A DNA stretch of 50,753 nt, taken from NCBI GenBank assembly GCA_027315385.1, contig DAHUYD010000073.1, positions 1 through 50,753 on the forward strand. The letters are read 5' to 3'. The translations under genes and the position numbers were made by a program. Origin of the DNA: Acidobacterium sp. Its GTDB lineage: Bacteria; Acidobacteriota; Terriglobia; Terriglobales; Acidobacteriaceae. Of this stretch, positions 14,547-36,348 are shown one piece after another. Within the stretch, counting starts at the first letter, position 1. Each line of letters begins with the position of its first letter. The notes under the pieces are model-generated. The model saw nothing but the letters and a program-made list of their open reading frames with translations. It was not told the origin of the DNA and searched no databases.

Positions 14547-14650
14547 GGCGCCTGTTCCCCAGGATCCCCCGGCATTTGCGGCACTTGAACACCCATGGGT
14601 TAAGGCGCCGGCACAACAAGACAATCAGGAACGCGCTTCTGGAGGACCGG

Positions 14651-17600
14651 ATGACACGGAAGTTCAGGTTGATGCTTATCCTTTTGTCGGCGCTGCTACT
14701 GGCTGCGCCGCGCGCGATGTTTAGCCAGGCGCCTACCGCAGCTGCTCTCGCAGGAACTGTGACCGACCCATCCGGGGCTGTGATCCCTGGGGCTAAGGTC
14801 AGCATCATGCGCCCCACCACCGGGTACAACCAGACCGTTACCTCGAATTCCGTCGGCGGCTACATTTTCCCGGACCTGCAGGCCGGGCGATACACCCTCA
14901 AGGTCAGCGCCAATGGCTTCAGGGGGCATCAAATCAACGGCGTTGTGGTCCAGACGGGCCGTACCCTGAACCTGAACGTGAGCATGACGGTGGGTTCCAC
15001 CACCCAGACGGTCGAAGTCTCCACCGCCGCCCAGGTTCTGGAAACCACGATCAATACTCTGTCGACCACGATCACGCCTGACGCGGTGCAGGACCTTCCG
15101 CTGAATGGGCGCGATGCCCTGCCGTTTGCACAATTAGTTGCGGGGGCCCAGACCGGAGGCGACCAGAGGTTCACTACCTACGATGCCATGCCGAACGCCG
15201 CCATCAATATCACCGTTGACGGCATGAACGACAATTTCCAGCGGTTCAGGACCAGTTCCACCGGCTTCTTCGATGCGGCGCCGCTGCGGATTGGCGCGGT
15301 GCAGGAAGCAACCGTATCGACGAACGACCTGACAGCCGATGCCGGAGCGGAAGGGGGAGCGACGCTTGGCTTCGAGCTGAAGCGAGGCACGAATCACTTC
15401 CACGGCGGCGCCTTCTGGGAAACCCAGAACAGCGCGTTCAACGCGAATACTTACCTGAACAACGCGGAGGGAATAAAAAGGACTCCTTTCCACATCAGCG
15501 ATTTCGGAGGCGATGCCGGCGGTCCCATCTGGAAGAACAAGGTGTTCTTCTTTGGTAATTACGAGCAGGAATATGTCCCCGGCAATACAGAGAGCTATGG
15601 CAGTGTCCTATCGCCCGCCGCCCAGGGCGGCCTGTTCACCTATGTTGGGACCGACGGCAACGTACACAACGTCAATGTCCTGAGCGTCGCAGCCGCGAAT
15701 GGGTTTCCCTCCACGGTGAACTCGGCGGTGGCCGGTGAATTCTCGCAGATTAACCCGACGGTCTCCAAGGCGCTGTCGAACGTTCCCAATCCCGCCTTTC
15801 CGTACCAGGACGAACTCGCCTGGCAATATCGCTGGAACTTCGACCAGATTTATCCTACGCTTCGCGTCGACTATCAGATCCGCCCTAACATCGAATGGAA
15901 TGCCTCCTACGATCTTGAGTGGCGGACCTACCCCGGCTACCAGCCATATCCAGGCGACCCTTACACGAACTCCAGTTTCAATTCGAGCTATCAGACCTAC
16001 ACCACGGGCTTTGAATGGACGATCACGCCAAAGTTGGTCAACCAGTTCAATGCCGGTCTTCTGAACACGCAGGAGGAGTTCAACGTTGGGCATGGATGGA
16101 ACCCCTTCACGCCGGAAAACAACCTGATCATCGATGCGCCCTACTTTGTAAACGGGGGGCAGACTCTGTTGCCGTATTTACCCAACTACTACCTGCCCGA
16201 GCCGCGCAATAATCCGGTGAGAAACTTTACTGACAATCTCTCCTGGACGGACGCCAATCACACGTTTACTTTTGGCGGCGACCTTCGCAACTCCACGGAC
16301 TTCGACACGGGCGTGAACGATCCCGTAGGCAACTACCTTGGCCTGAGCAACCTCGATCCTGCGCTCAGTATGTTCAATTCGACGAATTTTCCGTATATGA
16401 ACTTCAACGAGGCCAATAACCAGGATCCCGCGAACGCGGAAGCTCTGTATGCCACGCTGAGCGGCCGCATCAACTACTTCTACGGGACGAACTATGTCAA
16501 TTCGGCTACGCACCAGTATCAGACGCTTGGGGTGATGAAGCAGCCGGAAGCGCAGACCGTAGGCGGCTTCTACTTCCAGGATGCCTGGAGACTGACACCG
16601 CACTTTGCTCTTAACTACGGCTTCAGGTGGCAGTTCTCCGGCGCGGTACACAACACCAACAACACCTACACCAATCCGACCTTCGCCAGCCTGCTTGGAC
16701 CATCCACGCAACTGTTCCACCCGGGGCAACTGAACGGCGTACAAAATCCGCAGGTATCGCTTCGCCCCGCCCCCTACAGCGGGGATATGAAGGAGCCCGC
16801 TCCCAACGTGGGGTTCGCCTGGAATCCGGATTTGACGAAGGGATTCCTGGGCAGGCTGGCGGGCGGTTCGAACCTTGTGATTCGAGGCGGCGCGGCGGTT
16901 ACCTGGTACGACGAGGGCTGGACGACCTTCGAGCAGGCCACACTCTACTCCAACCCAGGGGACACGCAGGTGGTATCGGAGAATCCGGGACCGACCACGA
17001 ACACGCCGCCTGGAGAGTTCCCTGCCGGATCGCTGGACCTGGGGGCCGCGCCCAGCCTGAACGGATTCCCGGCGAGCTTCAGCTTCCCGGTGCCGGAGTC
17101 GGATTTCACGTTTGCCTTTCAGCCCTTTGCCACAGTGGATCCCAACATCCGCTCGCCGTACATTGAGAACTGGTACTTTGGGCTGCAGCGGCAGTTCCCT
17201 TCGCACACCGTAGTTCAGGTTAACTACGTGGGCAACCATTCCGTTCACATGTGGATGAACTACGACCTGAACGAGGTGAATATCTTCGAGAACGGGTTCC
17301 TGAACGAATTTAAGACCGCTCAGGCGAACCTCGCCTCGTATCAAGCCAACAACCCAAACTGCGGAAACACCGGGACCTGCAGCTTTGAAGGCTCCCCCGG
17401 GGCACTTCCGCTCATGGAACAGGCCTTTGGAACCCGTGGGTCGGGATTCACCAATCCTACGAATGTGACCGATGTCGGCACCGGGCAGGCAGGCACTCTG
17501 GCCTATGCGATTGCGGATAATCCAACCTGGTTTTGCAACCTTGTCGGCACCGGCAGCGGCGGATCATTCAGTCCCTGCGCGAATCTTGGTTACACGGGGG

Positions 17601-18517
17601 GAACGCCATACCCGATCAATGTATTCCAGGCGAACCCTTTTGCCTCCGGCGAGCCCATCATGCTGCTTTCGGATCCCGGCAGCGAATCGTATAACGGCCT
17701 GCAGATTCAGGTTAAGCATCCCACGGGACACAACCTCGTATTACAGGCCAACTACGCATACAGCCATGCTTTCACTAACCGGTATATCGGCGACTACTAT
17801 ACAGGAGACGAAGCCATCGGCAACTTTGTAACCCTGCGCAATACGAAGCTGAGCCGCGGGCCGTCTCCACAGGATCTGCGACACACGCTAACTGCTTATG
17901 CCCTGTATACGCTGCCATTCCGCCCGCAAAGCCGGCTCATGAAGGAGGCCTTTGGGGGGTGGACGCTCTCACCGATCGTCGAGTGGCACACAGGAGAGAA
18001 CTTCAAGATGCTCGGCGGCACGAATACCTTTAACTACTACGCTGGTTCCGGGCAACCTGATGCCAGCGATTCCGGTGTGGTGCTTCACGGAGTTACCACC
18101 CGGCAGCTGCAGAAGCAGGTCGGGTACTATCCCAGCCCATCAACCCCATCGACTCCAATGCTGCTCATGAATCCCAAGGTGTTTACAAGCGGCGAGGTAA
18201 CGTCCGAAGAGACGCCGGGTCAACTGGGGCAGTTCGTCTTCCTCCACGGACCCCAGTTCTTCAATACCGATTTCGCGGCGACGAAGCTCTTCCCAATCGC
18301 CGAAGCGGTGCAACTCGACATCCAGGCCGAGATGCTCAACGCCTTCAACCACCCTAACTGGAACTATGTCGACGGGTATTCGGGTGGAACCAACAACCCA
18401 GCACAATATGTAAATGTCACTAATAGCCCGGCCGCTCCGGGAGCAGAGATCAACCCTGAAGGCCTGCAATCCGGGGGAGCTCGCGACATTCAGTTTCGCG
18501 TTCAGCTGGTGTTCTGA
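14651..18517 (+). CDS. TonB-dependent receptor with carboxypeptidase-regulatory domain (Oar-like)
   Basis: Large outer-membrane receptor (1288 residues) of the type abundant in Acidobacteriota. A signal peptide (about 1-25, ending MFSQA) is followed by an Ig-like carboxypeptidase-regulatory domain (AGTVTDPSGAVIPGAKV), a plug with ITVDGMNDN, and a long barrel ending in the outer-membrane signature RVQLVF with a terminal Phe. GGAGG lies five bases before the ATG at 14651. The frame is open further upstream to 14576, but without a ribosome site. The peptidase gene follows after 82 bases holding a strong hairpin. The pairing suggests import of peptides or their products; the ligand is inferred, not shown. 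Confidence 0.9.
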   Translation: MTRKFRLMLILLSALLLAAPRAMFSQAPTAAALAGTVTDPSGAVIPGAKVSIMRPTTGYNQTVTSNSVGGYIFPDLQAGRYTLKVSANGFRGHQINGVVVQTGRTLNLNVSMTVGSTTQTVEVSTAAQVLETTINTLSTTITPDAVQDLPLNGRDALPFAQLVAGAQTGGDQRFTTYDAMPNAAINITVDGMNDNFQRFRTSSTGFFDAAPLRIGAVQEATVSTNDLTADAGAEGGATLGFELKRGTNHFHGGAFWETQNSAFNANTYLNNAEGIKRTPFHISDFGGDAGGPIWKNKVFFFGNYEQEYVPGNTESYGSVLSPAAQGGLFTYVGTDGNVHNVNVLSVAAANGFPSTVNSAVAGEFSQINPTVSKALSNVPNPAFPYQDELAWQYRWNFDQIYPTLRVDYQIRPNIEWNASYDLEWRTYPGYQPYPGDPYTNSSFNSSYQTYTTGFEWTITPKLVNQFNAGLLNTQEEFNVGHGWNPFTPENNLIIDAPYFVNGGQTLLPYLPNYYLPEPRNNPVRNFTDNLSWTDANHTFTFGGDLRNSTDFDTGVNDPVGNYLGLSNLDPALSMFNSTNFPYMNFNEANNQDPANAEALYATLSGRINYFYGTNYVNSATHQYQTLGVMKQPEAQTVGGFYFQDAWRLTPHFALNYGFRWQFSGAVHNTNNTYTNPTFASLLGPSTQLFHPGQLNGVQNPQVSLRPAPYSGDMKEPAPNVGFAWNPDLTKGFLGRLAGGSNLVIRGGAAVTWYDEGWTTFEQATLYSNPGDTQVVSENPGPTTNTPPGEFPAGSLDLGAAPSLNGFPASFSFPVPESDFTFAFQPFATVDPNIRSPYIENWYFGLQRQFPSHTVVQVNYVGNHSVHMWMNYDLNEVNIFENGFLNEFKTAQANLASYQANNPNCGNTGTCSFEGSPGALPLMEQAFGTRGSGFTNPTNVTDVGTGQAGTLAYAIADNPTWFCNLVGTGSGGSFSPCANLGYTGGTPYPINVFQANPFASGEPIMLLSDPGSESYNGLQIQVKHPTGHNLVLQANYAYSHAFTNRYIGDYYTGDEAIGNFVTLRNTKLSRGPSPQDLRHTLTAYALYTLPFRPQSRLMKEAFGGWTLSPIVEWHTGENFKMLGGTNTFNYYAGSGQPDASDSGVVLHGVTTRQLQKQVGYYPSPSTPSTPMLLMNPKVFTSGEVTSEETPGQLGQFVFLHGPQFFNTDFAATKLFPIAEAVQLDIQAEMLNAFNHPNWNYVDGYSGGTNNPAQYVNVTNSPAAPGAEINPEGLQSGGARDIQFRVQLVF

Positions 18518-21096: not shown

Positions 21097-22416
21097 TTAG
21101 AAAATGAACCAGACAGCAGCGTAGACTGTGTTGTTGTCCGCCGCATTGCGGCCGGAACCGTCATAGTTGGCTCCGGAGCCGTTGAAGCGGCTGAAGCCGT
21201 TATAGGCAATGGTCAGATCGATGTTCTGGTCGGGCCAGTAGCTTCCCTGAAAGATGTAGCCGGCGGTATTCGGACTTCCGCTTCGGCTGCCCGTGACGGC
21301 AGCGGGGCTGTACAGCGCAGAGTCGGTGGTTCCGGCCATATTGAAGTACGAAGCGGTGACGTTATATTTGCTGCTCCAGTACCAGGTCGCATCCATGCGC
21401 CCAAGATCGAGGGTGTGATCGCGCATGGCCGCTCCGCCGGCCAGGTAGGTCGCATCGAGGCTGGAACTCTCGTGAATGTAAGTGCCGTGAACGCTGAGAG
21501 TATCCACCCCAAAGGGGCGCTCGTATGAAAAGTCGAATGAGGGATCGACGTAGCGATCCGCGGGACCGTTGACGGCGCCCGGGTAGGACCGCATGTAGAG
21601 ACCATAGGTACCGGCTTCAAGATAACCCTTGCCGATATATTGCTGCCAGGCAAAGCGCCAATAAGGCGCAACTCCGTCGACGTTATAGCTGAAGTTTGTT
21701 CCCGTTGCCGGGGCGGGTCCGCCCGCATGCTCGGATCGATACAACGAGATATCGCCGTAGAGATGATCGTTCCACATAGCATAGCCGCCAACACCGGCCA
21801 CGTCCTGCGCCAGGCCGCCGTCAATCACCGGACCCGCAACAGAGCCGGGGGTCTGATCGGCCGAGATGTAGGGATAGCCCCACGCGGGAGTACTGTTCCA
21901 GAGATCTTCGACGGTGGGGTTATTGTTGAGCGTCACGCCGTAGGTCAAATCTTTGCCATTCACCTTCATACTGTTGGCATAGCGAATGTCGGTATTGTCC
22001 ATTGTGAAGTGGTCGCTCTGGTGATCGTAGGTCGCCTGGGCCATGACGCCGAAGTGGGCGGCGATCTCCTCCGCAAGAAACAAACTGAACTGCTGGGGAA
22101 ACTCGGCTGTGCCGTTCTGGGTGCCGGGCTGCGCCTTGTTCAGCCGGGTATCCGATGCGATCAGCATGGCAGAGAGGGGCAGATTGCGCAGGAGGCGCAA
22201 GGTGCTTCCGTCGCCTATCGTGTTCTTCTTCGTATGGTCCACCAGTTCATAGGCATGCAGCTTAAACCAGCGTCCAAACGGGGTAAGTTCCGGCGGAGCG
22301 TAATGGCAGACGTTACAGGAGAGGCCGGTTTGGCGCGCGAAACTGGGGACTGCCCAGGCGGATGCGGCGTAACTGAGGACCACGAGAGGGGCGAGGAGTT
22401 TGACGACAGGTCGCAT
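21097..22416 (-). CDS. fused monoheme cytochrome c-porin (Cyc2-like outer-membrane protein)
   Basis: The 439-residue protein has a signal peptide cleaved near AWA-VP (about residue 22), then FARQTGLSCNVCH with a single c-type heme motif (Cys34, Cys37, His38) and LTPFGRWFKL. The rest alternates aromatic and polar residues as in an outer-membrane beta-barrel and ends in AAVWFIF with a terminal Phe. This layout, one heme plugged into the mouth of a barrel of about 400 residues, is that of the Cyc2 family of fused cytochrome-porins known from iron-oxidising bacteria. The family match is by eye and distant relatives of unknown role exist. GGAG precedes the ATG. It is the last gene of the Rieske/cytochrome b operon, 24 bases after it. 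Confidence 0.7.
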   Translation of the reverse strand: MRPVVKLLAPLVVLSYAASAWAVPSFARQTGLSCNVCHYAPPELTPFGRWFKLHAYELVDHTKKNTIGDGSTLRLLRNLPLSAMLIASDTRLNKAQPGTQNGTAEFPQQFSLFLAEEIAAHFGVMAQATYDHQSDHFTMDNTDIRYANSMKVNGKDLTYGVTLNNNPTVEDLWNSTPAWGYPYISADQTPGSVAGPVIDGGLAQDVAGVGGYAMWNDHLYGDISLYRSEHAGGPAPATGTNFSYNVDGVAPYWRFAWQQYIGKGYLEAGTYGLYMRSYPGAVNGPADRYVDPSFDFSYERPFGVDTLSVHGTYIHESSSLDATYLAGGAAMRDHTLDLGRMDATWYWSSKYNVTASYFNMAGTTDSALYSPAAVTGSRSGSPNTAGYIFQGSYWPDQNIDLTIAYNGFSRFNGSGANYDGSGRNAADNNTVYAAVWFIF

Positions 22417-22440
22417 AAGTGCTCCGTTGCAAAAGGCGAA

Positions 22441-25419
22441 TCAGCGGTTATAACGCAAAGCGCGAATGTAAGAGATGAGCGCCTTCAGGTCCGCCGGGTT
22501 GAGACTGACCGGCGGCATTCCGTGGGACTGCATTGCGCTGGAGGGATGCTCAAGCAGGTGCTGGATCATGTCCGGCGGAAGCTCGGAAGCCGTGGCCGTA
22601 AGCGAGGGCGCCGCGGCCGTACCCTCCATGCCGCCGCCTCCATGACACGTGGAACATCTGGCCTGGAAGTAGATTTCCCTGCCCTTTTGCTCTTCGGCGG
22701 TCAATTTGGGAGGAGGCGCGTGACGAGCGGGCGAAGGCTCTTCGGCACCAGTCGCAGTTGCAGAGGAGGGCTTGCGCAGTTGCGCGAGATAGGCGATGAG
22801 ATTTTCGATTTCAGGATCGGTGAAGGAAAAGGTGGGCATGCCGCCAGCTTTCATGCGGGCGTTCGGATGGCGAATGAGATCGGCCAGCTGCTGGTGGGAG
22901 TATTTGTTCGTAACTCCGATGAGGGAGACGGCAAGAGGCGTGCCAATTCCGTTGACGCCGTGGCAGGCAATGCAGCCGTGAGAGTTGAATATTTTCTCGC
23001 CGGCAGCGGCGGGCGCGGACAACTGAACAGCGGCGGATTCGACCTGTGGCTGCGAAGCCGGCACTGGCGCAGGCTGCTTTGCCGGCGCGGCTGAAGCTTC
23101 CGGTTGGGCCGCGGGCGCAGGCGATGAGGCGACTGGCTGCGATGGAAGAGCGAGGATGGGCAGTGGAGCTTCGTGCGCGGGCACAGGCAGAGAGTTCAGG
23201 TATGCCCAGAGCTGATGGGTCTGCCGAGCCGAGAGGCCCGCGGGGGGCATGCCCTTCGCAGTCATTTCCGGGAGCGGATGGTTGATGAGTACAGCGAAAG
23301 TCTGCTCCGGAAGCTGCCGGGAGATGCCCGCCAGTGCCGGGCCAATCTTAGTGCCCTGGGCCTGAGCGCCGTGACATGCCAAACATGCGTGCTGAGCGAA
23401 GAGAGCCTGGCCAGCGGCAATATCGGAAGGCGATGGGGCGTGCGACGAACTTGCGGCGGAGGGGGCCGCAGGGACCGCCTCCGGTGGAGGCGGCGGCGCG
23501 GGCTGACGCAGCGGAGGAACGTGCTGCGCGGAAGGCGCGGCCACTCGGGCAGGGGCGGGGAGGCTCCTGAGGAACGCCACGACCGCGTTGAGCTGATCCG
23601 GGGGCAGAGCAACGGGGACCATTCCTTTGGCCTGCATGGCCGGCGTCGGATGCTCAATGTGCATACGGATAACGGCCGGGGAAGTTCGGGCGGCCCATCC
23701 CGCCAGGGCGGGAGCGCGCGCGGTACCCTGAGCGGCGGGTCCGTGGCAGGCGAAGCATGCGTGGGCCTGAAATACCTGGTGGCCCTGGTCGATCAAACCA
23801 GAGCCAGCCGCGCTTTGTTCGGCCGACGCAGGTCCCGCGGGGCCTGGAGCGACCGATGCGGCAGCGTTCAAAGCTGCGGGGGCGGGGGCCGCATTTGCCG
23901 ATTCCGGCAGAGAGCTGCTTTCAGCAGCGACATTCTCGGCGGGAGTGCCCAGCGCGTCAAGATAAGCGACGAGTTGCCTGAGGTGGGGGGTAGAAAGATC
24001 CGGGACGGGCATTCCCGCCGATCGCATGGCCGGACTCGGATTCCGCAACAGTGCGACCAGAGCATCCGGCGCGAACTTTTTGCCGATGCCGACCAGGGAG
24101 GGGCCGATTGCGCCCCGCCCACGAGGTCCATGACAGCCGGAACAGCCATTGTCGGCGAAGAGGGCCTTGCCGCGGGCAACCGTTGGATTCGCGGAGGCCG
24201 GCTCGATCAGATTGATTGCGCCCGGAGCCTGCATGAACGGCTGGAACGGACTTTCGGTATAGGCCTTCTCCTCGGCAGCCTGCAGAATCAGTTGCCGGCG
24301 CACGGTGGGATCGTGCATGTCCTGATAACGGCTGAGACCGCCAAGATAGATAACGCCGAGAAGCACAAACGAGACGGCAAGGAGCGGAACGGGGCGACGC
24401 CAGGGACGACGCTCGAAACTTCTGTCAAGGAACGGCAGCAAAAAGAACAACAGGGCAAGGAGCGCGGGAATAACGACGATTCCGAGAACGGCCGTTGAAC
24501 CTTCCCAGAACTTCAGCCACTCGAACATCGGCAGGTAATACCATTCCGGACGCGGCAGATAATTGGCGGCCGCGGGGTTGGCACGGGGGCCTAGTTCCAC
24601 GGGACGAAAGTGCGCCAGGAATCCGAGGGCGGACATCAGAACCATCGCGAAGCCCATATCCATCAGGACCTGCTTTGGATAAAAGCTCTCCGGTGGAAGC
24701 TTCGGATCGATGGGATCTTCCCTGACCGGGCCGGCGGCACCGGCTTTCCGGAAAAGGTAAATATGCGTTGCGATGAAGGCGAAGATGCAACCCGGGATCA
24801 AGAACAGATGAGCAATATAGAAGCGGGACAGGGTGAGGGTTCCGATGGTATCGCCGCCACGCATAAGGCGGGCGATCCAGCCACCAACGAGGGGGACCTC
24901 GGAAACGATATTGGTTCCGACCGCGGTGGCGAAGTAGGCCTTCTGATCCCAGGGCAACAGGTAGCCGGTGAATGCCATCCCGAGGACCAGGAAGGCGAGC
25001 ACGCCGCCGGATATCCAGAGCAGTTCGCGGCGGCCTTTGTAGGCTCCGTAGAGAAAGGTCTGCAGGAAGTGGAGGGCAAGAACGATGACCATGGCGCTCG
25101 AGCCGTAATAGTGGAGACTTCGCAGGAAGTCTCCGGCAGCAACCTGCTTGGTGATGTAGGCCACGCTGACGTGGGCATTCTGCGCCGAGGGCACGTAATA
25201 TATGGCCAGACAGATCCCGGTGATGACCTGGGAGATAAATATAAAGAGCAGCCCGGAGCCGAAAATATAGGCCCAGCTGGCTCCTCCAGGGATGGGTTCG
25301 TCGAGCGAAACCTTCAGAATGAGGTTCAGGCCGGTCCTTTTCTCAATCCACCTGAGCAGTCGCCGAGCCCGCGTTTTGGGCATGGGGTCTGGAGTGCTGG
25401 AATTCATGCTTTCTCTCAC
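22441..25419 (-). CDS. cytochrome b6/subunit IV-type protein fused to five cytochrome c domains
   Basis: The 992-residue protein begins with a complete cytochrome b core. Heme b ligands are His103/His117 (13 residues between) and His204/His219 (14 between, the b6-type spacing). The quinol-site PEWY motif is at 291-294. About seven membrane segments leave the C-terminus in the periplasm. Five CxxCH domains follow at 426-430, 555-559, 679-683, 816-820 and 922-926, each with a likely distal Met (470, 600, 724, 861, 968), joined by Ala/Pro-rich linkers. One c domain is common in such fusions; five is unusual. It probably oxidises quinol with the upstream Rieske protein and passes electrons along its own heme chain. 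It starts at GTG (25419) or ATG (25407). Confidence 0.92.
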   Translation of the reverse strand: MRESMNSSTPDPMPKTRARRLLRWIEKRTGLNLILKVSLDEPIPGGASWAYIFGSGLLFIFISQVITGICLAIYYVPSAQNAHVSVAYITKQVAAGDFLRSLHYYGSSAMVIVLALHFLQTFLYGAYKGRRELLWISGGVLAFLVLGMAFTGYLLPWDQKAYFATAVGTNIVSEVPLVGGWIARLMRGGDTIGTLTLSRFYIAHLFLIPGCIFAFIATHIYLFRKAGAAGPVREDPIDPKLPPESFYPKQVLMDMGFAMVLMSALGFLAHFRPVELGPRANPAAANYLPRPEWYYLPMFEWLKFWEGSTAVLGIVVIPALLALLFFLLPFLDRSFERRPWRRPVPLLAVSFVLLGVIYLGGLSRYQDMHDPTVRRQLILQAAEEKAYTESPFQPFMQAPGAINLIEPASANPTVARGKALFADNGCSGCHGPRGRGAIGPSLVGIGKKFAPDALVALLRNPSPAMRSAGMPVPDLSTPHLRQLVAYLDALGTPAENVAAESSSLPESANAAPAPAALNAAASVAPGPAGPASAEQSAAGSGLIDQGHQVFQAHACFACHGPAAQGTARAPALAGWAARTSPAVIRMHIEHPTPAMQAKGMVPVALPPDQLNAVVAFLRSLPAPARVAAPSAQHVPPLRQPAPPPPPEAVPAAPSAASSSHAPSPSDIAAGQALFAQHACLACHGAQAQGTKIGPALAGISRQLPEQTFAVLINHPLPEMTAKGMPPAGLSARQTHQLWAYLNSLPVPAHEAPLPILALPSQPVASSPAPAAQPEASAAPAKQPAPVPASQPQVESAAVQLSAPAAAGEKIFNSHGCIACHGVNGIGTPLAVSLIGVTNKYSHQQLADLIRHPNARMKAGGMPTFSFTDPEIENLIAYLAQLRKPSSATATGAEEPSPARHAPPPKLTAEEQKGREIYFQARCSTCHGGGGMEGTAAAPSLTATASELPPDMIQHLLEHPSSAMQSHGMPPVSLNPADLKALISYIRALRYNR

Positions 25420-25428
25420 TGGTCCGCC

Positions 25429-25989
25429 TTAGCTGAGCTCTTCGCGATTTGGGACGTTTGCACGGAAGTATTCAAAGTGGACCAGCAGCTCTCCTGATTC
25501 CGCCTCGTTGGGAAGAGGGTCCATGCCGCGCGGGGCGGGACCCGATATGTGCTTGCCCTGGCTATTGAAGACGCTTCCGTGACACGGGCAGAAAAACCTG
25601 TCGCTGGACGCCTGCCAGGAGACGTTGCAGCCGAGGTGGGGACAAATGGACGAGAGGACCAGACATTTCCCGTTCGGCAGGCGCTGGACGTAAACGGATT
25701 CGGTGGTGACAACCTCTCGCCAGCCATCCAGCTGGCGGAAGGTGACGTCCTTTCGAACGGGCGGGCTGCCAATTGGAGGTAAGTGGTCGACGAGGCCGAC
25801 CTTCGACCATTTGGACCCGCGCTGTTTGGTATACAGGGGATAAAGCACGAAACGCAGAACAGGGGCAGCCAGCATCGCACCCATCCCCACGGTTCCCACT
25901 GAAAGAAGCGCGCCGAAAAAAGATCTGCGGCTGATTACGATAACTTCGCGGCCATGCTCGTCCTGAGGGGTCTTTCGATTGCTATCCAT
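25429..25989 (-). CDS. Rieske [2Fe-2S] protein of a bc-type complex
   Basis: The 186-residue protein has a twin-arginine-like anchor (SRRSFFGALLSVGTVGMGAML, about 20-40) and a Rieske fold. Cluster ligands are Cys116/His118 in CPHLGC and Cys134/His137 in CPCHGS; Cys121 and Cys136 are placed to form the usual disulfide. The frame is open to 26046, but the ATG at 25989 gives a normal Rieske N-terminus. The cytochrome b gene starts 10 bases downstream, so the two form the core of a quinol:cytochrome c oxidoreductase. A GCCGTG-TCA-CACGGC hairpin lies at 26015-26029, upstream of the start. Confidence 0.93.
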   Translation of the reverse strand: MDSNRKTPQDEHGREVIVISRRSFFGALLSVGTVGMGAMLAAPVLRFVLYPLYTKQRGSKWSKVGLVDHLPPIGSPPVRKDVTFRQLDGWREVVTTESVYVQRLPNGKCLVLSSICPHLGCNVSWQASSDRFFCPCHGSVFNSQGKHISGPAPRGMDPLPNEAESGELLVHFEYFRANVPNREELS

Positions 25990-26014
25990 GTCCGATATCC
26001 ATTCCTGTGGTTGT

Positions 26015-26029
26015 GCCGTGTCACACGGC
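26015..26029 (-). promoter_or_regulatory. palindrome upstream of the Rieske gene
   Basis: GCCGTG-TCA-CACGGC is a perfect 6+3+6 inverted repeat that ends 26 bases before the Rieske start codon. It could be a leader hairpin or an operator. A weak -10-like CATAAT lies about 60 bases further upstream on the minus strand, so a second promoter for the respiratory genes is possible. Confidence 0.35.
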
Positions 26030-26154
26030 GGACGCCGAGACGACAACGTGGCAGCCGCGTGGCGCTGGAGAATTTTTGCATTATGGGGCCCGGAATATGC
26101 CGACGGAAGTTTCCTGGGAGCGGAACGTCCGAGAGCTCAGGTTGTTCGAAACGA

Positions 26155-26520
26155 TCAGATACGAATGAGCACGAGAAGCAGGAGCCGGCGTCGGCCAGAA
26201 GCCTGGCGAACAGGGGCCCGGGGGTCAGCAGAATCGTGGACGCCCCCGCAGAACAAGATTACCGCGCCAGAGGCGGAATCGGCCTGCATCGGCTGTTCCA
26301 ACTCGTCCGCGGCGATGGCGGCGCGAGCAGACCTGAAGTGATGGACCGGGCGAGCGGGCATGGCCTGGACGTAATCCAGCGGCAGGGGCGGCTTGACACA
26401 GGGGGCCGCATCAGCGCGCGCAAAGCAACCCGTCGGCGAGCGAGGCGAATGAGGCAGTGCGACAACCCCGGGCGTCATTATGGCAAGCAAAGCGGTCAGC
26501 ACGCCGACGAGGAATCGCAT
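26155..26520 (-). CDS. small secreted protein of unknown function
   Basis: Not recognised. From the ATG at 26520 it encodes 121 residues beginning with a convincing signal peptide (RFLVGVLTALLAIMTPGVVA). A Pro/Ala/His-rich stretch with two isolated Cys near residues 32 and 41 follows, then a basic, Leu-rich end. There is no CxxCH motif. The frame is open to 26598, but that longer form would read through the CRP-like palindrome. It sits first in the apparent Rieske/cytochrome operon, 165 bases before the Rieske gene. It may be a genuine periplasmic partner or only a leader reading frame. Confidence 0.35.
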   Translation of the reverse strand: MRFLVGVLTALLAIMTPGVVALPHSPRSPTGCFARADAAPCVKPPLPLDYVQAMPARPVHHFRSARAAIAADELEQPMQADSASGAVILFCGGVHDSADPRAPVRQASGRRRLLLLVLIRI

Positions 26521-26553
26521 ACGAGAGGTTCGCAGTTGTAAAGTAGTACCGTC

Positions 26554-26569
26554 TGTGACAAATATCACA
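26554..26569. promoter_or_regulatory. perfect CRP-type palindrome
   Basis: TGTGA-CAAATA-TCACA matches the consensus of the CRP branch of the CRP/FNR family in all ten conserved bases. It lies in an AT-rich island (about 26521-26640), unlike the surrounding GC-rich DNA, 34 bases before the first start codon of the respiratory operon. A -10-like TATGAT occurs on the minus strand at 26618-26613, which would place the site downstream of the start point, as for a repressor. Activation from a closer start point is also possible. Confidence 0.6.
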
Positions 26570-26760: not shown

Positions 26761-28557
26761 CTACCCACGGGTGGCGGAGGAGGGGCGGCGATTCCCGAAG
26801 GGCCGCCCCTTTACCTGTCCCTGGCCCTCCCGAAGTGTGACGAGTTGGTTGGGGGCGACGCCGTGCAGGCGCTCGTTGAGTCCCGAGGGCCAGCGGACGT
26901 CGATATCGGCGGAAGTTGCTTTGCCGAGGCCGAAGTGCAGGCGCGGATCGCTGGACGAGAGGAAGCTCGATCCGCTCAACACTTCCTGCGCCTGGGTTTT
27001 GCCGCCATAGCGGACGACGATGCGGGCTCCGATGGCGCTGCGGTTGCTTTTGACGCCCTCCAGCCGGACTTTGATCCAGTGGTTGCCGGCTGGGGCATCG
27101 TTGCGCAGGAGGGTGGGCGGCTCGTTGACGTTCATGATGAGCACGTCCATGTCGCCATCGTTGTCGAAGTCTCCAAAGGCTGCGCCGCGGCTGCAATGCG
27201 CCGCAGCGATGCCCGGGCCGGCCTCGGCTCCCATCTCGATGAAGGAGCCGTTGCCGCGGTTGCGGAAGAGGATGCGCGGGCTGCGAGCAGGAAAGCGCGG
27301 CGAGACCTTCGCGACTTCAGGGTAGACCGATCCGGAAGTGAGGAGGATGTCGGGCCAGCCATCGTTGTCGAAGTCCACAATGCCGGCGCCGAAGCAAACG
27401 AAGCGGCTCTCGCGGTTGAGGCCGGCCGCGACGGTTACATCGTCGAAGTAGCCTTTGCCGTCGTTGCGGTAGAGTCCGGTGGCCTGGCCGTAGTAGTGGG
27501 TCTTCACGATATCCAGGTGGCCGTCGAGGTTGTAGTCGCCCACGGCGGCGCCCATGCCGCCCATCTCGCGGCCTTCGCCGTTGACGGCGACGCCGCGGAG
27601 GAGGGCTTCCTCGCGAAAAGTGCCGTCGCGGTTGTTCATGAGGAGAAAGGAAGGCGTCATATCGCAGGCGACGAAGATATCGGGCCAGCCGTCTTCGTCG
27701 GCGTCGAAGCTGAGGGCGGTGAGGCCATAGGAGCCGTGCAGCGCGGCGACGCCGGACTGCGTCGATACATCGGTAAAGGTGCCGTTGCCGTTGTTGCGGT
27801 AGAGATATTGATGGGCTTTGGGCAGGCCCAGGGGGCCGCACATGGTGGCCACTCCCTCGTAGTTGCAATTGGGAACATCGAGAGAGGGCTTTTGCGCGGT
27901 GGCGAGATCGATCTCAAGGTAGTTGGAGACAAAGAGATCGAGATGGCCGTCGCGGTTGTAGTCGAGGAAGGTGCAGCCGGTGCTGTAGCGCGTGGCGGGA
28001 AAGAGCAGGCCGGCCTCGGCGGTGACGTTGGAGAATGTGCCGTCGCCGTTGTTGCGGTAGAGGCGGTTCTGGCCGTAGTAGGTGAGGAAGAGATCTTCCC
28101 AGCCATCGTTGTTGTAGTCGCCGACGCAGACGCCCTGAGCCCAGCCGGGGTCGGCAAGGCCGGATCGCGCGGTGACGTCGGTAAACGTGCCATCTCGATT
28201 GTTGCGGTAGAGGCGGTTGCCGGAACCGGGGGGCGTGCCGGCCAGAGTGCGACCGCCGAGGATGAAGATGTCGATCCATCCATCGTTGTCGTAGTCGAAG
28301 AACGCGCAGCCGGTGGCCATTGACTCGACGATGTAGGTGAAGGTGCCGGGCTCGCCGTAGATGATGGGGGTGGTGAGCCCGGCCTGGCGGGCGACGTCGG
28401 TGAATCGCGAGAAAGGCGGAGCAGGCGTGTTCAGAGCGGAGGCGGCGGCGCGCAATTCGGGGGGCAGCAGCGCTGGGGCCAGAGCCTGAGGAATGGAACG
28501 CAGGAGCCGGCGCCGCGTCCAGAGATTCGGGGAATTCGTGTTGTTCATCGACGACAT
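26761..28557 (-). CDS. CRTAC1-type FG-GAP / ASPIC-UnbV repeat protein
   Basis: The 598-residue exported protein has a twin-arginine-like start (TRRRLLRSIPQAL). At least seven FG-GAP/calcium-loop repeats of the type DYDNDGWIDIF, DYNNDGWEDLF and DFDNDGDMDVL indicate an integrin-like beta-propeller. The C-terminal ASPIC/UnbV domain (about 505-585) includes GARIVVRYGG, LSSSDPRLHFGLG and VRWPSG. Acidobacteriota often carry such genes next to TPR genes, as here (22-base gap). The function of bacterial members is not established; a surface or periplasmic binding scaffold is plausible. The last codons overlap a hairpin with a UUCG-like loop. Confidence 0.9.
   Translation of the reverse strand: MSSMNNTNSPNLWTRRRLLRSIPQALAPALLPPELRAAASALNTPAPPFSRFTDVARQAGLTTPIIYGEPGTFTYIVESMATGCAFFDYDNDGWIDIFILGGRTLAGTPPGSGNRLYRNNRDGTFTDVTARSGLADPGWAQGVCVGDYNNDGWEDLFLTYYGQNRLYRNNGDGTFSNVTAEAGLLFPATRYSTGCTFLDYNRDGHLDLFVSNYLEIDLATAQKPSLDVPNCNYEGVATMCGPLGLPKAHQYLYRNNGNGTFTDVSTQSGVAALHGSYGLTALSFDADEDGWPDIFVACDMTPSFLLMNNRDGTFREEALLRGVAVNGEGREMGGMGAAVGDYNLDGHLDIVKTHYYGQATGLYRNDGKGYFDDVTVAAGLNRESRFVCFGAGIVDFDNDGWPDILLTSGSVYPEVAKVSPRFPARSPRILFRNRGNGSFIEMGAEAGPGIAAAHCSRGAAFGDFDNDGDMDVLIMNVNEPPTLLRNDAPAGNHWIKVRLEGVKSNRSAIGARIVVRYGGKTQAQEVLSGSSFLSSSDPRLHFGLGKATSADIDVRWPSGLNERLHGVAPNQLVTLREGQGQVKGRPFGNRRPSSATRG
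26781..26810 (-). terminator. hairpin over the 3' end of the FG-GAP gene
   Basis: AGGGGCGGC and GCCGCCCCT form a perfect 9-bp stem around a loop that holds a CC-TTCG-GG mini-stem on the minus strand. It overlaps the last codons of the FG-GAP gene. A further small stem (ccggg/cccgg) lies just downstream near 26745. No U-run is present. It may mark the end of the TPR/FG-GAP unit, upstream of the respiratory promoter. Confidence 0.4.
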
Positions 28558-28578
28558 TGTTCCGCTCTCATGTTCGGA

Positions 28579-30093
28579 TCAGGGCGCCTGGGGCGCAGCG
28601 GCGAGCTTCCTGCTGAGACTGAGCGCGGCCGCATTTTCGGGATCGATGCGGAGCGCGTGCCGCACCGCTTCCCTTGCCTCGCTGAGGCGGGATTCCGCAG
28701 CGAGCGTGGCGGCCAGGGAAATCCACGCCTGGGCATCCTGCGGGAGACCGGAGACGGTGATGCGGAACTGCTGCTCGGCTGCCGCGGTGTCTCCGGCCTG
28801 GAAGTCCATGTAGCCGAGGCGGTAGTGCGCGAGGACAAAATGAGGATCGGCGCGGAGGGCCAGCTGGAGTGCGGCGCGTTCGCCCTGGGTGTCGCCGAGA
28901 TCGTCCTGAACGAGAGCCAGTTGCCAGGCCAGGCCGGCGTCCTGGGGCTCTGCAGCGCAGGCTTGCTGGAGAAGCGCGGCTGCTTTGCGATTGTCGCCTG
29001 ACTTGCGCGCCTCCGCGGCCTCAGCAGCTTTGGAAACGGCAAGCGCCCGGTCCGACTCCTGTTTGAGCCTTTGCTGGTAAAGGAGAAGCTGGCGCTGCGC
29101 GGCCTGGGTTTCGCCGAGCGCGCGCAGAACCCTGGCCAGTTCGAAGTAAATCTGGGGCGCGTTTGCGCCGAGGGATCGCGCCTTTTCCAACTGCACTTTC
29201 GCGCCGGCGGGATCGTTCAGGTCCGCGAGAACCATGCCGAGGTTGACACGCGGGTTAAAGTCGCCAGGGCTGAGGGCCACGGCTTCCTCCAGATGCCTGC
29301 GCGCCGCCTGGTAGTCCCCTGCCCTTTTCTCCAGCAGGCCGTTCAGGTTGAGCAGGTCGGGATCGCGGGGAGCGAGCGCAAGCAGCTTTTGTCCCAGGGG
29401 AAGAGCGCGGTCGTTGTCGCCGGTAATGACCAGGGTGCGCAGATAGATTCGCTGCGCTTCGAGATCGCCGGGGCGGGCAGCGGCGAATGTCTTCGAAATC
29501 GCAGTCGCGGCTGCATAATGCGATTCGTCGACATAGAGCGCGACCAGCTGCGCGGTCAGGGCGTCGGAGCGCGGATCGGCTTTGAGGCCCTTCTGCAGCG
29601 TCTGCTCCTCCTCGCTCAACATGCCGGTCTTCCTGTAAGCGATGGCGAGATCGAGGGAGAGATTCTCGTCGGGGGCGGCACCGTGCAGGCTGCGGATTAC
29701 CGAGGTGTAGTCACCGGCAGCGATGAGGATTTTGGCCTGCCCGTCGAGCGCGGGGGCCGATGCGGGATCGATTTGAAGGGCGGAGCGGTAGGCCCGCAGC
29801 GCGCATTCCGGCTGACGATGGCGGCCGAACCAGGCACCCAGCCGGGTAAAGGACAGTGCGCCGGGACGATCGTGAATCTGTGCCTGGATGGAAGCGGGGC
29901 CGGTGCAGGCAGCGCCCGCCGCCGCGCAGAAGCAGGCCGCGGCCGCGAATCCGGCGAGGCACAGATCCGCACGCCGCAATTTGAAAACCCGACGACACGC
30001 AAGGGCAGAGGTTTGGGGCGAACGGGAAACGAGGCGAACCGCGCGGCGGGCATAAGCAGTGAAGGCCGATCGCCTGAAATACGCTGTGAGCAT
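28579..30093 (-). CDS. TPR-repeat protein with membrane anchor
   Basis: The 504-residue protein has a basic N-terminus, a hydrophobic segment (about 45-65, LCLAGFAAAACFCAAAGAAC) and then tetratricopeptide repeats to the end, for example ALRAYRSALQIDPASAPALDGQAKIL and ARRHLEEAVALSPGDFNPRVNLGMVLADL. TPR arrays are protein-protein scaffolds. The ATG at 30093 is preferred over the upstream start at 30129 because GAGGAG lies just before it. It is translated before the ASPIC/UnbV gene and probably co-transcribed. The pair likely work together at the cell envelope, but the partner is unknown. Confidence 0.88.
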   Translation of the reverse strand: MLTAYFRRSAFTAYARRAVRLVSRSPQTSALACRRVFKLRRADLCLAGFAAAACFCAAAGAACTGPASIQAQIHDRPGALSFTRLGAWFGRHRQPECALRAYRSALQIDPASAPALDGQAKILIAAGDYTSVIRSLHGAAPDENLSLDLAIAYRKTGMLSEEEQTLQKGLKADPRSDALTAQLVALYVDESHYAAATAISKTFAAARPGDLEAQRIYLRTLVITGDNDRALPLGQKLLALAPRDPDLLNLNGLLEKRAGDYQAARRHLEEAVALSPGDFNPRVNLGMVLADLNDPAGAKVQLEKARSLGANAPQIYFELARVLRALGETQAAQRQLLLYQQRLKQESDRALAVSKAAEAAEARKSGDNRKAAALLQQACAAEPQDAGLAWQLALVQDDLGDTQGERAALQLALRADPHFVLAHYRLGYMDFQAGDTAAAEQQFRITVSGLPQDAQAWISLAATLAAESRLSEAREAVRHALRIDPENAAALSLSRKLAAAPQAP

Positions 30094-30220
30094 ACTCTCC
30101 TCAGCACCCCGCAGGGCGGCACGAGACAAAGGTTGCCGCCGCCTGCAACCGCATCGGAAACCTGGAGCGGGAAAGCCGATGTCTGAGAATAATCAATCGC
30201 TCCGCGGCGGACAAGCAAAG

Positions 30221-32577: not shown

Positions 32578-32764
32578 TGCACATCTGCACCGCTCCTCGT
32601 GATGATAGTTTCCCGTATGTTACTGGAATTTCGTAAGTTATATGGTGATTAACATTTGATTCAAAAAAGGCTCGCCGTGCATTGCCGGGTGTGGCGGTGA
32701 GCGAGTGTCATTCACGCTGGCCGGCAGTACGCAGTCTGCGGACTCAGAAGGCTCGGGAGGCTTT

Positions 32765-35700
32765 ATGGTGAATCGAATGAAGAGGGCTACAACTGGCACA
32801 GCCTGGTGGGCTTTTCTTTTGGTGGTGGTCTTCGCGGTTTCCGGCGGACTCGGCGCGTACGCTCAGTCCGACAACGGCAGCATTGTGGGCACGGTCACCG
32901 ATCAGTCGGGTGCGGCGATACCGAATGCGGCCATCGACATCACGAACCTTGCTACCGGGGTGAAGTTCCATGCCACGTCGGACGGCGAGGGCGGATTCCA
33001 GATTCAGGCGGTGCCGCGCGGATCCTACACTGCAGAGGTGAAGTCGAGCGGCTTTGAGAGCCAGAAGGCTAACTTCACGGTGGAAGTTGCGACGTCGCAG
33101 ACCCTGATCTTCAAGCTGTCGCCTGGCGCGGTGAACACCACGGTGACGGTAACGAGCGCCGCGCCGCTGGTGGACACGACGGATGCGACGATTGGGGACA
33201 CCATCCAGGGCAAGCAGGTTACGGACCTGCCGCTGAACGGCCGTAACTTTACGCAGCTGGCACTGTTGACGCCAGGGGTCACCCGCGGCGCGTATGGCGA
33301 CATTGCTTCAGGCGGCGGCAGCTCCAATATGACGGAAACCATGCGCAACAACGAGAGCGGCTCCGCGGCACTGTCCGTGAACGGGCTTCGTCCGCAGGCG
33401 GACAACTACATTCTGGACGGCGTGGACAACAACGATGGGATGGTCAACACCATCCTGTTCTATCCGAACATCGACGCGACTCAGGAATTCAAGATCGACA
33501 CGAACATCGCCCCGGCCGAGTACGGCCGCGCGGGCGGCGCGATCGTGGTGAGTTCCACGAAGAGCGGCACCAACAAATACCACGGCTCGCTCTTCGAGTT
33601 CTATCGCGACCGGAGCTTCGACTCCAACCCGAACTACCGGTTCGACGGAGCGCCTGCGACTCCGGCGGCGGGCTTCCTGCGCAACCAGCCCGGCTTCTCG
33701 ATCGGCGGACCGTTCCTGAAGAACAAGCTGTTCGGGTTCGGGGACTATCAGGCGCTGCGGGAGACACTCGCCGTGTCGCCGCACTACGTGACCGTTCCCA
33801 CCGCGCTGATGCGCCAGGGGAACTTTACGGAACTGCTGAACCAGGCGGGATCGGGCTCGAACCAGTACGAAACGCAGTATCCGCGGTGCTATCCGGGGTC
33901 GTACACGGACTCCAGCGGGACTCATCCGTACGCGGGGGCGACGACGTTCGGCGCCCAGGCCGGCTGGATCTTCGACCCGACCACGTGCGGCCAACCCGGC
34001 GGTCCCGCGCAGTTCATCTCGGGCGGGCAGGCCAATGTGATTCCCACGAGCCGGCTGAATCCGGCGGCGGTCGCCTACCTCAACGCGTTTCCCATGCCGA
34101 GCCGTACGGATCGCTATCTGAATAACTATCTTGTCACCCAGAACGAAGCCAACAAGTACAACACTTTCGATGTTCGCTTCGACTGGAACCCGACCGAAAA
34201 CGACCGGGCGTTCATCCGCTACAGTTACGACAACTCGGTGAACACGAAGACGTCTGAATTCACGAAGCTGCCGGCGGGAGGAGGCACCGGGATCAATCCG
34301 ACTCACGCGCGGGGCTACGATCTGGGGTACACGCATATCTTCTCGGCGAATGTTGTCAACGATGTGCACATCGCCTACAACCGCGACAACTATGGCTACA
34401 CGCCGCCCATGTACGGATCATATGTCTCGAAAGACCTGGGCATCGTGAACGCGAACATCAACATGGAGACCACCGGGGGCGCGCTGATCGGCGGGTGGAA
34501 GGGCAACCTCGAGTACACGGGCGACTACGGCCTGTACGCGGTTCCGCAGAACACGTACGAACTGAACGATGCGGTGAGCTGGAACAAAGGGCAGCACGCC
34601 TTCAAATTCGGGGGCACGTTTATCCGCCGCCAGGTGGAATTCTTCAACCCGCAGGAGGGCAAGGGCTACTTCTGGATCGACGAGGGGACGGTCGACTTTA
34701 CGGGCTACGAAGTCTCGGAGCTGATGGCGGGCGGCGTGGACCAGTACCAGATCGGCTCGCAGCAGGGCTACTTTGCGAACATCGGGCAGGAAGACGGGGT
34801 GTTCGGCGAGGACGTATGGCGGGTGAACCGGAATCTTACGCTGAACTACGGCCTGCGGTGGGATTTCCTGTCGCATCCGTATGAGGCGCACAACCAGCAG
34901 TCCGCCTTCAACGTGCAGACGGGGACGGTGATGATTGCCGGCAGGAACGGCGTCCCGGCCAGCATTATCTACCAGGACTACCATGACTTCGGTCCGCGGC
35001 TGGGGTTTGCGTACGACCTGCGCGGGGACGGCAAAACGGTGCTTCGCGGCGGATACGGGATTTTCTACTTCCACGACTACGGCGGCGTGGGCAACCAGCT
35101 TGGCGAACAGCCTCCGTTCGGCGGCAGCAACGATTACCTGGCCAGCAACGGATACTGCATCACGTTCACGGGGCAGCTGAACCAGACGCCGGTGAGCACG
35201 GGCAACGACTACAACTGCAACGGCTACACCAGCCCGTCGACGGTGGCGTACAGCGCCAGCGGGGACACGGGCATTCCGCTGCCGGCGCGCGGTTATCCCA
35301 ACTTCAACCCCGCGGCGCCGCCGCCGGGGACGGCGATGATCGGGGTTAACCCGCGCATGAAAACCAGCACGATTGACGAATGGAATCTACAGGTAGAGCA
35401 CCAGTTCGGTTCGAACAACGTTCTCAACGTCGCATACGTGGGGACGGGTGCCTCGAACCTTTCCTCTTACTACCCCTATAACATCAACCAGTTCGGCAGC
35501 GGCGTGCAGAACTTCCCGGGCTTAGGGGGCATCAACTACAACGACAATAACGGCATTTCGAACTATAACGGCCTGCAGGTGCACGCGGTGCATCGCGCGG
35601 CCAACGGCCTGATTGCGACGGCATCCTATGCGTGGTCGCATACGCTGGACGATTCCACAGGGGCCTCCGAGGGCCAGTCGGCTGCGCTGTACTTCTCGCC

Positions 35701-36301
35701 GATGGCTGGATACGGCAATTCGATCCAGGATCAGCGGCACGTGTTCAGCACGTCGATCCTTTACCCGCTGCCGTTCGGCCGGGGGCAGAAATTCGGCGGG
35801 GATATCTCGCGTCCGCTGGACTGGGTGGTGGGGGGATGGCAGACCAGCATCATCTCGCTGCTGCAGACCGGCACCCCGGTGGATTTGTCGACAGGCGAAT
35901 ACGCGCCGGGCAATCGTCCCGATCTCACAGGCAAGATTTCGTATCCGAAGTCAACGGGAGGCAACGCCGGGAATTACTGGTTCGATCCGGCCGCGTTTGC
36001 GAATCCGCCCACGGTCAAGTCGGCGGCCTGCAACTGCACGGTCTATACGCGACTGGGAACGCTGGGGCGCGATCAGATCTACGGTCCCGGCTTCAAAACG
36101 GTCAACTTCAGCCTGCAGAAGACGGTTCAGCTGGCCGAGCGCTATTCGCTGGAACTCCACGGCGATGCGTTCAACCTGCTGAACACGCCGGCGTTCACCA
36201 ATCCGAACGGCAGCCTCACGTCGTCGCAGTTCGGGCAGATCGAGGGAACGCAGGTTTACACGAACCGTCAAATCCAGCTGGCGGCGCGTTTCGTCTTCTA
36301 G
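32765..36301 (+). CDS. TonB-dependent receptor, Oar-like, of the alpha-glucan locus
   Basis: The 1178-residue receptor has a signal peptide (about 1-35, ending AYAQS), a carboxypeptidase-regulatory domain (GSIVGTVTDQSGAAIPNAAI), a plug with LPLNGRNFTQLALLTPGV and NYILDGVDNNDG, and a large barrel ending LAARFVF with a terminal Phe. GGGAGG lies four bases before the ATG at 32765; the open frame extends upstream to 32705 without a ribosome site. Two secreted GH13 enzymes follow on the same strand, so its substrate is probably a maltodextrin or similar alpha-glucan. That substrate call is from context only. Confidence 0.92.
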   Translation: MVNRMKRATTGTAWWAFLLVVVFAVSGGLGAYAQSDNGSIVGTVTDQSGAAIPNAAIDITNLATGVKFHATSDGEGGFQIQAVPRGSYTAEVKSSGFESQKANFTVEVATSQTLIFKLSPGAVNTTVTVTSAAPLVDTTDATIGDTIQGKQVTDLPLNGRNFTQLALLTPGVTRGAYGDIASGGGSSNMTETMRNNESGSAALSVNGLRPQADNYILDGVDNNDGMVNTILFYPNIDATQEFKIDTNIAPAEYGRAGGAIVVSSTKSGTNKYHGSLFEFYRDRSFDSNPNYRFDGAPATPAAGFLRNQPGFSIGGPFLKNKLFGFGDYQALRETLAVSPHYVTVPTALMRQGNFTELLNQAGSGSNQYETQYPRCYPGSYTDSSGTHPYAGATTFGAQAGWIFDPTTCGQPGGPAQFISGGQANVIPTSRLNPAAVAYLNAFPMPSRTDRYLNNYLVTQNEANKYNTFDVRFDWNPTENDRAFIRYSYDNSVNTKTSEFTKLPAGGGTGINPTHARGYDLGYTHIFSANVVNDVHIAYNRDNYGYTPPMYGSYVSKDLGIVNANINMETTGGALIGGWKGNLEYTGDYGLYAVPQNTYELNDAVSWNKGQHAFKFGGTFIRRQVEFFNPQEGKGYFWIDEGTVDFTGYEVSELMAGGVDQYQIGSQQGYFANIGQEDGVFGEDVWRVNRNLTLNYGLRWDFLSHPYEAHNQQSAFNVQTGTVMIAGRNGVPASIIYQDYHDFGPRLGFAYDLRGDGKTVLRGGYGIFYFHDYGGVGNQLGEQPPFGGSNDYLASNGYCITFTGQLNQTPVSTGNDYNCNGYTSPSTVAYSASGDTGIPLPARGYPNFNPAAPPPGTAMIGVNPRMKTSTIDEWNLQVEHQFGSNNVLNVAYVGTGASNLSSYYPYNINQFGSGVQNFPGLGGINYNDNNGISNYNGLQVHAVHRAANGLIATASYAWSHTLDDSTGASEGQSAALYFSPMAGYGNSIQDQRHVFSTSILYPLPFGRGQKFGGDISRPLDWVVGGWQTSIISLLQTGTPVDLSTGEYAPGNRPDLTGKISYPKSTGGNAGNYWFDPAAFANPPTVKSAACNCTVYTRLGTLGRDQIYGPGFKTVNFSLQKTVQLAERYSLELHGDAFNLLNTPAFTNPNGSLTSSQFGQIEGTQVYTNRQIQLAARFVF

Positions 36302-36317
36302 CAGGGCACCTGGTCTG

Positions 36318-36348
36318 TGCGCCACGGCGAAGGTCTCGTCGTGGCGCA
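36318..36348 (+). terminator. 13-bp hairpin between receptor and GH13 genes
   Basis: TGCGCCACGGCGA (36318-36330) pairs with TCGTCGTGGCGCA (36336-36348) over 13 bp with one G-U pair, closing a 5-base loop. It is the strongest hairpin seen in the window. TGAACTTTCG follows, with only a short T-run. It could terminate or attenuate the receptor transcript, or protect its 3' end after processing, and so set the ratio of receptor to enzymes. Confidence 0.65.

Follow-up and report, generated by a model that had tools for sequence, protein, structure and literature searches.

An acidobacterial operon joins a Cyc2-like barrel protein to a Rieske/cytochrome b complex with tethered hemes: a candidate outward electron conduit

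The acidobacterial genome G000 (91% complete, 194 contigs) carries a three-gene operon on its minus strand, in which a Rieske protein is followed by a cytochrome b fused to five c-type heme domains and then by a Cyc2-like fused cytochrome-porin. We estimate a probability of roughly 55% that this operon encodes an outward conduit, through which menaquinol electrons would reach an acceptor outside the cell, probably Fe(III) at low pH. The operon lies in a stretch of 50,753 nucleotides, the whole of which is here called the window. Published work is cited by PMC number, and each statement taken from it reflects those sections of the paper that were available to us.

Genes of the operon

A perfect CRP/FNR-type palindrome, TGTGA-N6-TCACA (26554..26569, assigned to neither strand), stands 567 bp upstream of the Rieske start. 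From it a leader (25987..26553, minus strand) extends to the Rieske [2Fe-2S] gene (25429..25986, minus strand), which encodes 185 amino acids from an ATG start. The cytochrome b fusion (22441..25419, minus strand) comprises 992 amino acids when read from a GTG, with an alternative ATG start at 25404, and the Cyc2-like gene (21097..22416, minus strand) encodes 439 amino acids. Neither an oxidase gene nor a separate multiheme cytochrome gene is present in the operon. An earlier, sequence-only reading of this DNA had described a Rieske protein, a cytochrome b with five CxxCH motifs, a barrel protein with one N-terminal CxxCH and a CRP-type palindrome, all of which are borne out at the coordinates given here. 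Of the two gaps that it reported between the three genes, 24 bases stands, but 10 bases is corrected to 9.

The leader includes a small open reading frame (26155-26520), which the same reading had taken for a secreted protein encoded by the operon. It has no Pfam or NCBIfam match, its codon-position G+C is ambiguous, and tblastn against the loci compared finds nothing better than E 0.15. Without a family match or a relative, it is rejected as a member of the operon and is probably leader sequence rather than a gene. A remnant of an ancestral barrel gene, expected in the leader if that gene had moved from the front of the operon to its end, was likewise rejected, with chance-level blastn matches only, to three related operons (L032, L033 and L035).

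The Cyc2-like barrel protein

By its sequence, the window barrel fits the published definition of Cyc2, namely at least 365 residues, an N-terminal CxxCH, an AXPXFAR[Q/K][T/Y] motif and PXL at +4 (PMC8406198). Behind a signal-like N-terminus, the 439-residue protein carries AVPSFARQT ahead of its heme site, CNVCH, with PEL four residues past it. The 16-strand porin barrel of Cyc2 is predicted with moderate confidence: the AlphaFold2 model has 16 strands of at least nine residues (pLDDT 62.8, pTM 0.68), its heme end being poorly modelled. Foldseek places outer-membrane porins on top (best E 3.3e-10); an outer-membrane barrel is named in 48 of the best 50 entries, with OprO (4rjw) at rank 47. 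Pfam and NCBIfam searches of the barrel return no family match, and a sequence search against solved chains (PDB) returns two chance-level matches only. The sequence definition and the predicted fold uphold the earlier claim of a Cyc2-like porin.

In having more than 365 residues, the motif, CxxCH, PXL at +4, the predicted strands and porin matches that include OprO, the window barrel resembles Cyc2/Cyt572; it differs in sharing its operon with a Rieske protein and a cytochrome b. A barrel relative at L048 (10001-11242) skips the stretch after CxxC, including the heme-ligand His, and may be a copy without heme or the product of an assembly fault.

The cytochrome b fusion and the Rieske protein

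Together, the other two products have the hallmarks of a Rieske/cytochrome b complex. Pfam recognises PF00355 in the Rieske protein (2.2e-11), and in the fusion Cytochrome_B (4.5e-47) and Cytochrom_B_C (1.9e-7; PF00033/PF00032), followed by Cytochrome_CBB3 in five stretches. The two cluster-binding boxes of the Rieske protein are CPHLGC and CPCHGS, the latter within CPCHGSVF. Cytochrome b contains two His pairs, starting at residues 103 and 204 with 13 and 14 residues between the partners, and a PEWY-type Qo motif (PEWY at 291), while the c-type heme acceptor of such a complex is provided by five fused class-I c domains. As a guide to the direction of flow the Rieske residues are not decisive: the window keeps Ser, Phe replaces Tyr, and relatives vary.

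The five CxxCH motifs of the tail lie on the minus strand at 24130..24144 (residues 426-430), 23743..23757 (555-559), 23371..23385 (679-683), 22960..22974 (816-820) and 22642..22656 (922-926), and each is accompanied by a distal M...GM motif. The linkers joining the c domains consist of 53-74% Ala, Pro and Ser. The AlphaFold2 model of the whole fusion (pTM 0.25) is poor in cytochrome b and usable for the separate c domains only; it depicts five helical domains with very-low-confidence linkers between them.

Conservation of the operon in related genomes

We refer to operons of the window kind, composed of a barrel, a Rieske protein and a cytochrome b with a c-heme tail, as type I. In a family sample of 60 genomes, 16 carry a full-length barrel (E <=1e-100), with 19 such places in all, and 14 carry a close cytochrome b (E <=1e-120). 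Both are present in 13 genomes, the barrel only in three, the cytochrome b only in one and neither in 43 (Fisher p 1.4e-9, to be taken with caution since the genomes are related). Of the 14 genomes with the close cytochrome b, 11 have the barrel next to it; the stretch around the cytochrome b in G022, G048 and G027 contains no Cyc2-motif gene. Counted from the barrel, 15/19 full-length places of the family sample adjoin a Rieske/cytochrome b set and 4/19 do not.

The family sample, the named MAGs and G324 together provide 17 adjacent type I loci. The barrel gene comes first in 16 of them, and the order Rieske-cytochrome b-barrel is found in the window only; from gene order alone we infer a rearrangement in the window. 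In a further set of 19 barrel loci, in which the named relatives are Acidobacteria MAGs, 12 are without Rieske/cytochrome b in the sequence available, several of them because the contig ends. Barrels on plasmids lack Rieske/cytochrome b neighbours in all seven neighbourhoods examined (of nine), where annotation is incomplete. At the level of the phylum, a survey finds the barrel in 8/297 genomes. In related genomes, then, barrel, Rieske and cytochrome b stay together, as the synteny survey suggested by the sequence-only reading was meant to establish; with a conserved neighbourhood and a predicted barrel fold, neither of the outcomes that would have counted against that reading, a non-barrel fold or a neighbourhood conserved nowhere else, has come about.

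Tail hemes and soluble cytochrome c

The 17 type I loci differ in the number of tail hemes: five in the window, L032, L033 and L035; four in L034, L052, L053, L054, L055, L057 and L114; and one in L038, L060 and L097. In L036, L056 and L066 the tails are cut, in L066 by the contig end. A separate small one-heme cytochrome is encoded between barrel and Rieske in all three one-tail-heme operons and in L066, but between the genes in none of the 11 operons with complete tails of four or five hemes. Because a separate cytochrome c is present with one tail heme and absent with four or five, the tether would appear to stand in for a soluble carrier, and this trade-off is the strongest support for the view, already put forward for the five hemes of the window, that tethered hemes do the work of soluble periplasmic carriers.

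In a tree of the barrels, operons with four or five tail hemes form one group (90/98), within which the five-heme operons are a subgroup (91/99). The strict AXPXFAR[Q/K][T/Y] motif occurs in 13/13 barrels of type I operons with four to five hemes or cut tails and in 0/3 full-length barrels from one-tail-heme operons, where close variants are found.

Further clusters and plasmid relatives

A second barrel operon of the same genome is located at G000:C101 (L051, 9251-17693). It encodes a cupredoxin-like protein, an NAD(P)-binding FAD/4Fe-4S protein, a Rieske protein, a b6 protein, a PetD-like protein, an eight-heme c, a one-heme c and a barrel with 54% identity to the window barrel over the part present. 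Such split Rieske/cytochrome b clusters with an NAD(P)-type subunit are termed type II. A Cyc2-like barrel occurs in 14 of the 15 split-type clusters of the family sample, the fifteenth (L088) being cut by a contig end beside the cupredoxin gene. Four of these 14 barrels are of the window's kind and ten come from a deeply separate clade; eight of the ten were placed in the tree and cluster together there (99/96). Since the same complex pairs with either of two barrel clades, this pattern argues for a functional coupling of type II complex and barrel. Outside the family, the full second cluster is present in three of the four phylum-survey barrel genomes examined (L109, L111 and L113; not L115).

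The G000:C101 cluster, not the window operon, resembles the Rieske/cytochrome b complexes with NAD(P) oxidoreductase of Kuenenia (PMC12954380) in its NAD(P)-binding FAD/4Fe-4S, Rieske, b6 and PetD-like proteins and its eight-heme c; it differs from them by the addition of a cupredoxin-like protein and a Cyc2-like barrel. Anammox complexes of this type are proposed to make NAD(P)H. At L095 (6045-11505, G028:C18), a related but longer Rieske/cytochrome b complex includes a six-heme c and an NAD(P)-type subunit, and no Cyc2-like barrel is seen nearby; it is the one examined among four longer-relative matches. A third conserved kind of cluster, type III, combines a distant Cyc2-like barrel with a two-heme c and a cupredoxin-like protein (L059 4739-7714, L068 7255-10345, L069, L070, L096, L097 5084-8185 and L116).

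Plasmid pACRY03 of Acidiphilium cryptum JF-5 encodes a barrel relative with 35% identity (E 3e-62). Its island (L146, 104-11186) contains genes for an anaerobic ribonucleotide reductase and PdxST as well as U32/SCP2 genes, which we take to serve oxygen-independent ubiquinone synthesis, with the Cyc2-like barrel and a c-type cytochrome on the opposite strand. The same island is carried by an At. ferrooxidans plasmid (L148), and is perhaps a mobile anaerobic-respiration module. The isolation study of strain JF-5 names it an Fe(III) reducer in the title.

The palindrome and its genomic distribution

Even when one mismatch is allowed, the palindrome upstream of the operon is the sole TGTGA-N6-TCACA site in the window. 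Genome G000 has 14 perfect sites, including one at each of its two barrel operons; a reversed control pattern is counted 0 times in G000, twice in G039 and 0 times in G044. A scan of the leaders with an FNR-type consensus gives no site at one mismatch or fewer. Perfect sites lie within 600 bp upstream of 12/16 type I operons (4/16 without) and of 9/19 type II operons (10/19 without), the latter count including one operon with only 116 bp upstream and one barrel-only contig. Type III clusters have an upstream perfect site in 0/7 cases. Across 41 loci (773,530 bases), 22 of 30 perfect sites fall inside the 24,400 upstream bases (binomial 4e-27, a guide only, because the sequences are related).

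We then compared the neighbourhoods of the sites in G000 (L118-L131) and in G039 and G044 (L132-L145). In G000, perfect sites stand upstream of cydA, of a universal stress protein gene and of a cytochrome c assembly/hemA pair; further sites adjoin ArsR/thioredoxin, GGDEF-PAS, PPDK-domain protein and other genes, and most of the 14 adjoin genes without an obvious low-oxygen link. Two genomes, G000 and G039, have cydA directly downstream of a perfect site. Sites in G039 also precede the type I operon and a universal-stress-protein gene next to cydB. In G044 a universal-stress-protein gene, again next to cydB, has a site upstream, as do the type I operon and a further Cyc2-like gene; the remaining sites of both genomes are without a clear link. 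As the same palindrome precedes barrel operons and cydA, its distribution suggests a low-oxygen regulon under a putative CRP/FNR-type regulator. Shewanella offers a parallel, in that CRP is needed there for Fe(III) reduction genes and activates cydAB (PMC4417206, PMC8458880). The same regulon could also serve a microaerobic Fe(II) oxidiser.

Electron path and direction

The operon had been read from its sequence as a path linking the cell surface to the quinone pool, and comparison with related genomes supports this. The path that we infer would begin with the oxidation of menaquinol at the Qo site of the dedicated Rieske/cytochrome b complex, which is assumed to run a proton-translocating Q cycle. 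The high-potential electron would pass from the Rieske centre to the five His/Met-type c hemes, which on their flexible linkers would span the periplasm and deliver it to the outer-membrane Cyc2-like barrel. The heme of the barrel would hand it on to an acceptor outside the cell, in acidic water most probably dissolved Fe(III). Expression would fall under the CRP/FNR-type low-oxygen regulon. Such an outward pathway could be driven because the iron couple at low pH is high enough, at about +770 mV at pH 2 (PMC8406198).

Outward flow is favoured by the low-oxygen regulon, the lack of an oxidase in the operon, the scarcity of RuBisCO, the menaquinone genes and the relative on pACRY03. RuBisCO is absent from G000 and from 30/33 genomes. 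Futalosine-type menaquinone genes are present, with MenD below the cut-off, and a separate cytochrome b adjoins an oxidase subunit at C139. Outward bc1-to-Cyc2 models have been proposed for ferric reduction in At. ferrooxidans, and ferric iron reduction is known from Acidobacterium and Acidicapsa (PMC8790237).

We hold the opposite direction to be doubtful. Electrons from Fe(II) would then enter through the barrel, part of them going to an oxidase encoded elsewhere and part being forced uphill through the Rieske/cytochrome b complex to the quinones, at the expense of the proton gradient, as acidophilic iron oxidisers do. This is in line with a barrel that fits the Cyc2 definition, as the Cyc2 proteins tested oxidise Fe(II) (PMC8406198), and with Cyc2 in Acetobacteraceae, for which the authors favour Fe(II) oxidation (PMC10715153); At. 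ferrooxidans does run its bc1 uphill (PMC8790237), and among the type I genomes G052 and G324 have a gene for a RuBisCO-family protein, a family that also includes RuBisCO-like proteins. Against these points stand the absence of an oxidase from the operon, the RuBisCO counts given above and the palindrome, which ties the operon to cydA. With menaquinone at about -70 mV (PMC12954380) and iron at about +770 mV at pH 2 (PMC8406198), the uphill step would be very steep. A conduit working in both directions, with Fe(II) oxidation in the presence of oxygen and Fe(III) reduction in its absence, strikes us as unlikely: Cyc2 and bc1 take part in At. ferrooxidans models of both directions (PMC8790237) and His/Met-type c domains are compatible with either, but the missing oxidase and the missing RuBisCO of G000 weigh here too. 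The earlier statement that direction could not be told is accordingly relaxed, in that outward flow can be argued for and is favoured, while the inward and reversible readings keep some weight.

If electrons do flow outward, the operon would provide a concrete pathway for ferric iron reduction by acidophilic heterotrophs including acidobacteria, a process that is only partly understood (PMC8790237): a Cyc2-like barrel would be wired to a Rieske/cytochrome b complex that pumps protons. It would also represent an unusual bc-type complex with its own heme chain towards the outer membrane, and Cyc2-like genes in environmental genomes could not serve as markers of iron oxidation without their neighbour genes. 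More tentatively, and with the odds against it, the Cyc2-like barrels of Acidobacteriaceae may be extracellular reductases, each with a dedicated Rieske/cytochrome b complex to which it is wired, and all controlled by a single low-oxygen regulon. In the window kind, with hemes on the cytochrome b, no soluble carrier would be needed for a Q-cycle enzyme to respire onto the outer membrane; in the G000:C101 kind, with its NAD(P) oxidoreductase, one quinol electron would go outside and the other would be driven to NAD(P), coupling extracellular respiration to electron bifurcation.

Comparison with known systems

Cyc2, bc complexes and clusters of Rieske, cytochrome b and porin genes are all known; what appears new is the union of a Cyc2-like barrel and a heme-string cytochrome b in a single operon. 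The nearest precedents are the Cyc2/bc1 chain of At. ferrooxidans and the ext cluster of Geobacter. In At. ferrooxidans, the pet operon lies apart from cyc2. That operon, cycA-sdrA-petABC, encodes the bc1 complex (PMC10654088). The bc1-CycA-rusticyanin-Cyc2 system likewise links the quinone pool, a bc complex, periplasmic carriers and Cyc2, with a proposed outward route (PMC8790237), but soluble carriers bridge the periplasm there, whereas in the window a single operon encodes the parts and the hemes are tethered to cytochrome b.

The Geobacter cluster is extHIJKLMNOPQS, in which a Rieske protein (ExtO), a cytochrome b (ExtP), c cytochromes and an outer-membrane porin (ExtI) are encoded in one conserved cluster; it differs in its separate 4- to 12-heme cytochromes, its small cytochrome b and a porin that the available sections do not describe as heme-bearing (PMC5877670). 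The ext cluster affects selenite and tellurite (PMC5877670), and a barrel serving an acceptor or donor other than iron, such as humics, chromate or selenite, is conceivable but very unlikely. A point in favour is the NCBIfam ExtP score of the window cytochrome b, 186.1 bits, yet this falls short of the equivalog cut-off of 290, as the 77.7 bits of the fusion on ExtS fall short of 100, and the window barrel has a CxxCH, unlike ExtI as described. Because the ext cluster already joins Rieske, cytochrome b, c cytochromes and porin, the original remark that no such system had been described needs a qualifier. For the exact combination, with the heme-string cytochrome b and the Cyc2-like barrel encoded together, a partial search of the literature yielded no account, and other papers, among them those in subscription journals, may give one.

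MtrCAB and OmbB-OmaB-OmcB also transfer electrons across the outer membrane. They do so with separate multiheme cytochromes and a 26-28-strand barrel (PMC10654088, PMC5877670), whereas the window operon, with one fused heme and 16 predicted strands, lacks the separate multiheme cytochrome and larger barrel of the MtrAB type.

Neighbouring genes in the window

Upstream of the operon and on the same strand, positions 26761-30129 encode an FG-GAP/UnbV-ASPIC protein and then a TPR protein. Two large outer-membrane-barrel proteins with carboxypeptidase-like domains are encoded at 14576-18517 and 32705-40131, the second being followed by two alpha-amylase-family genes.
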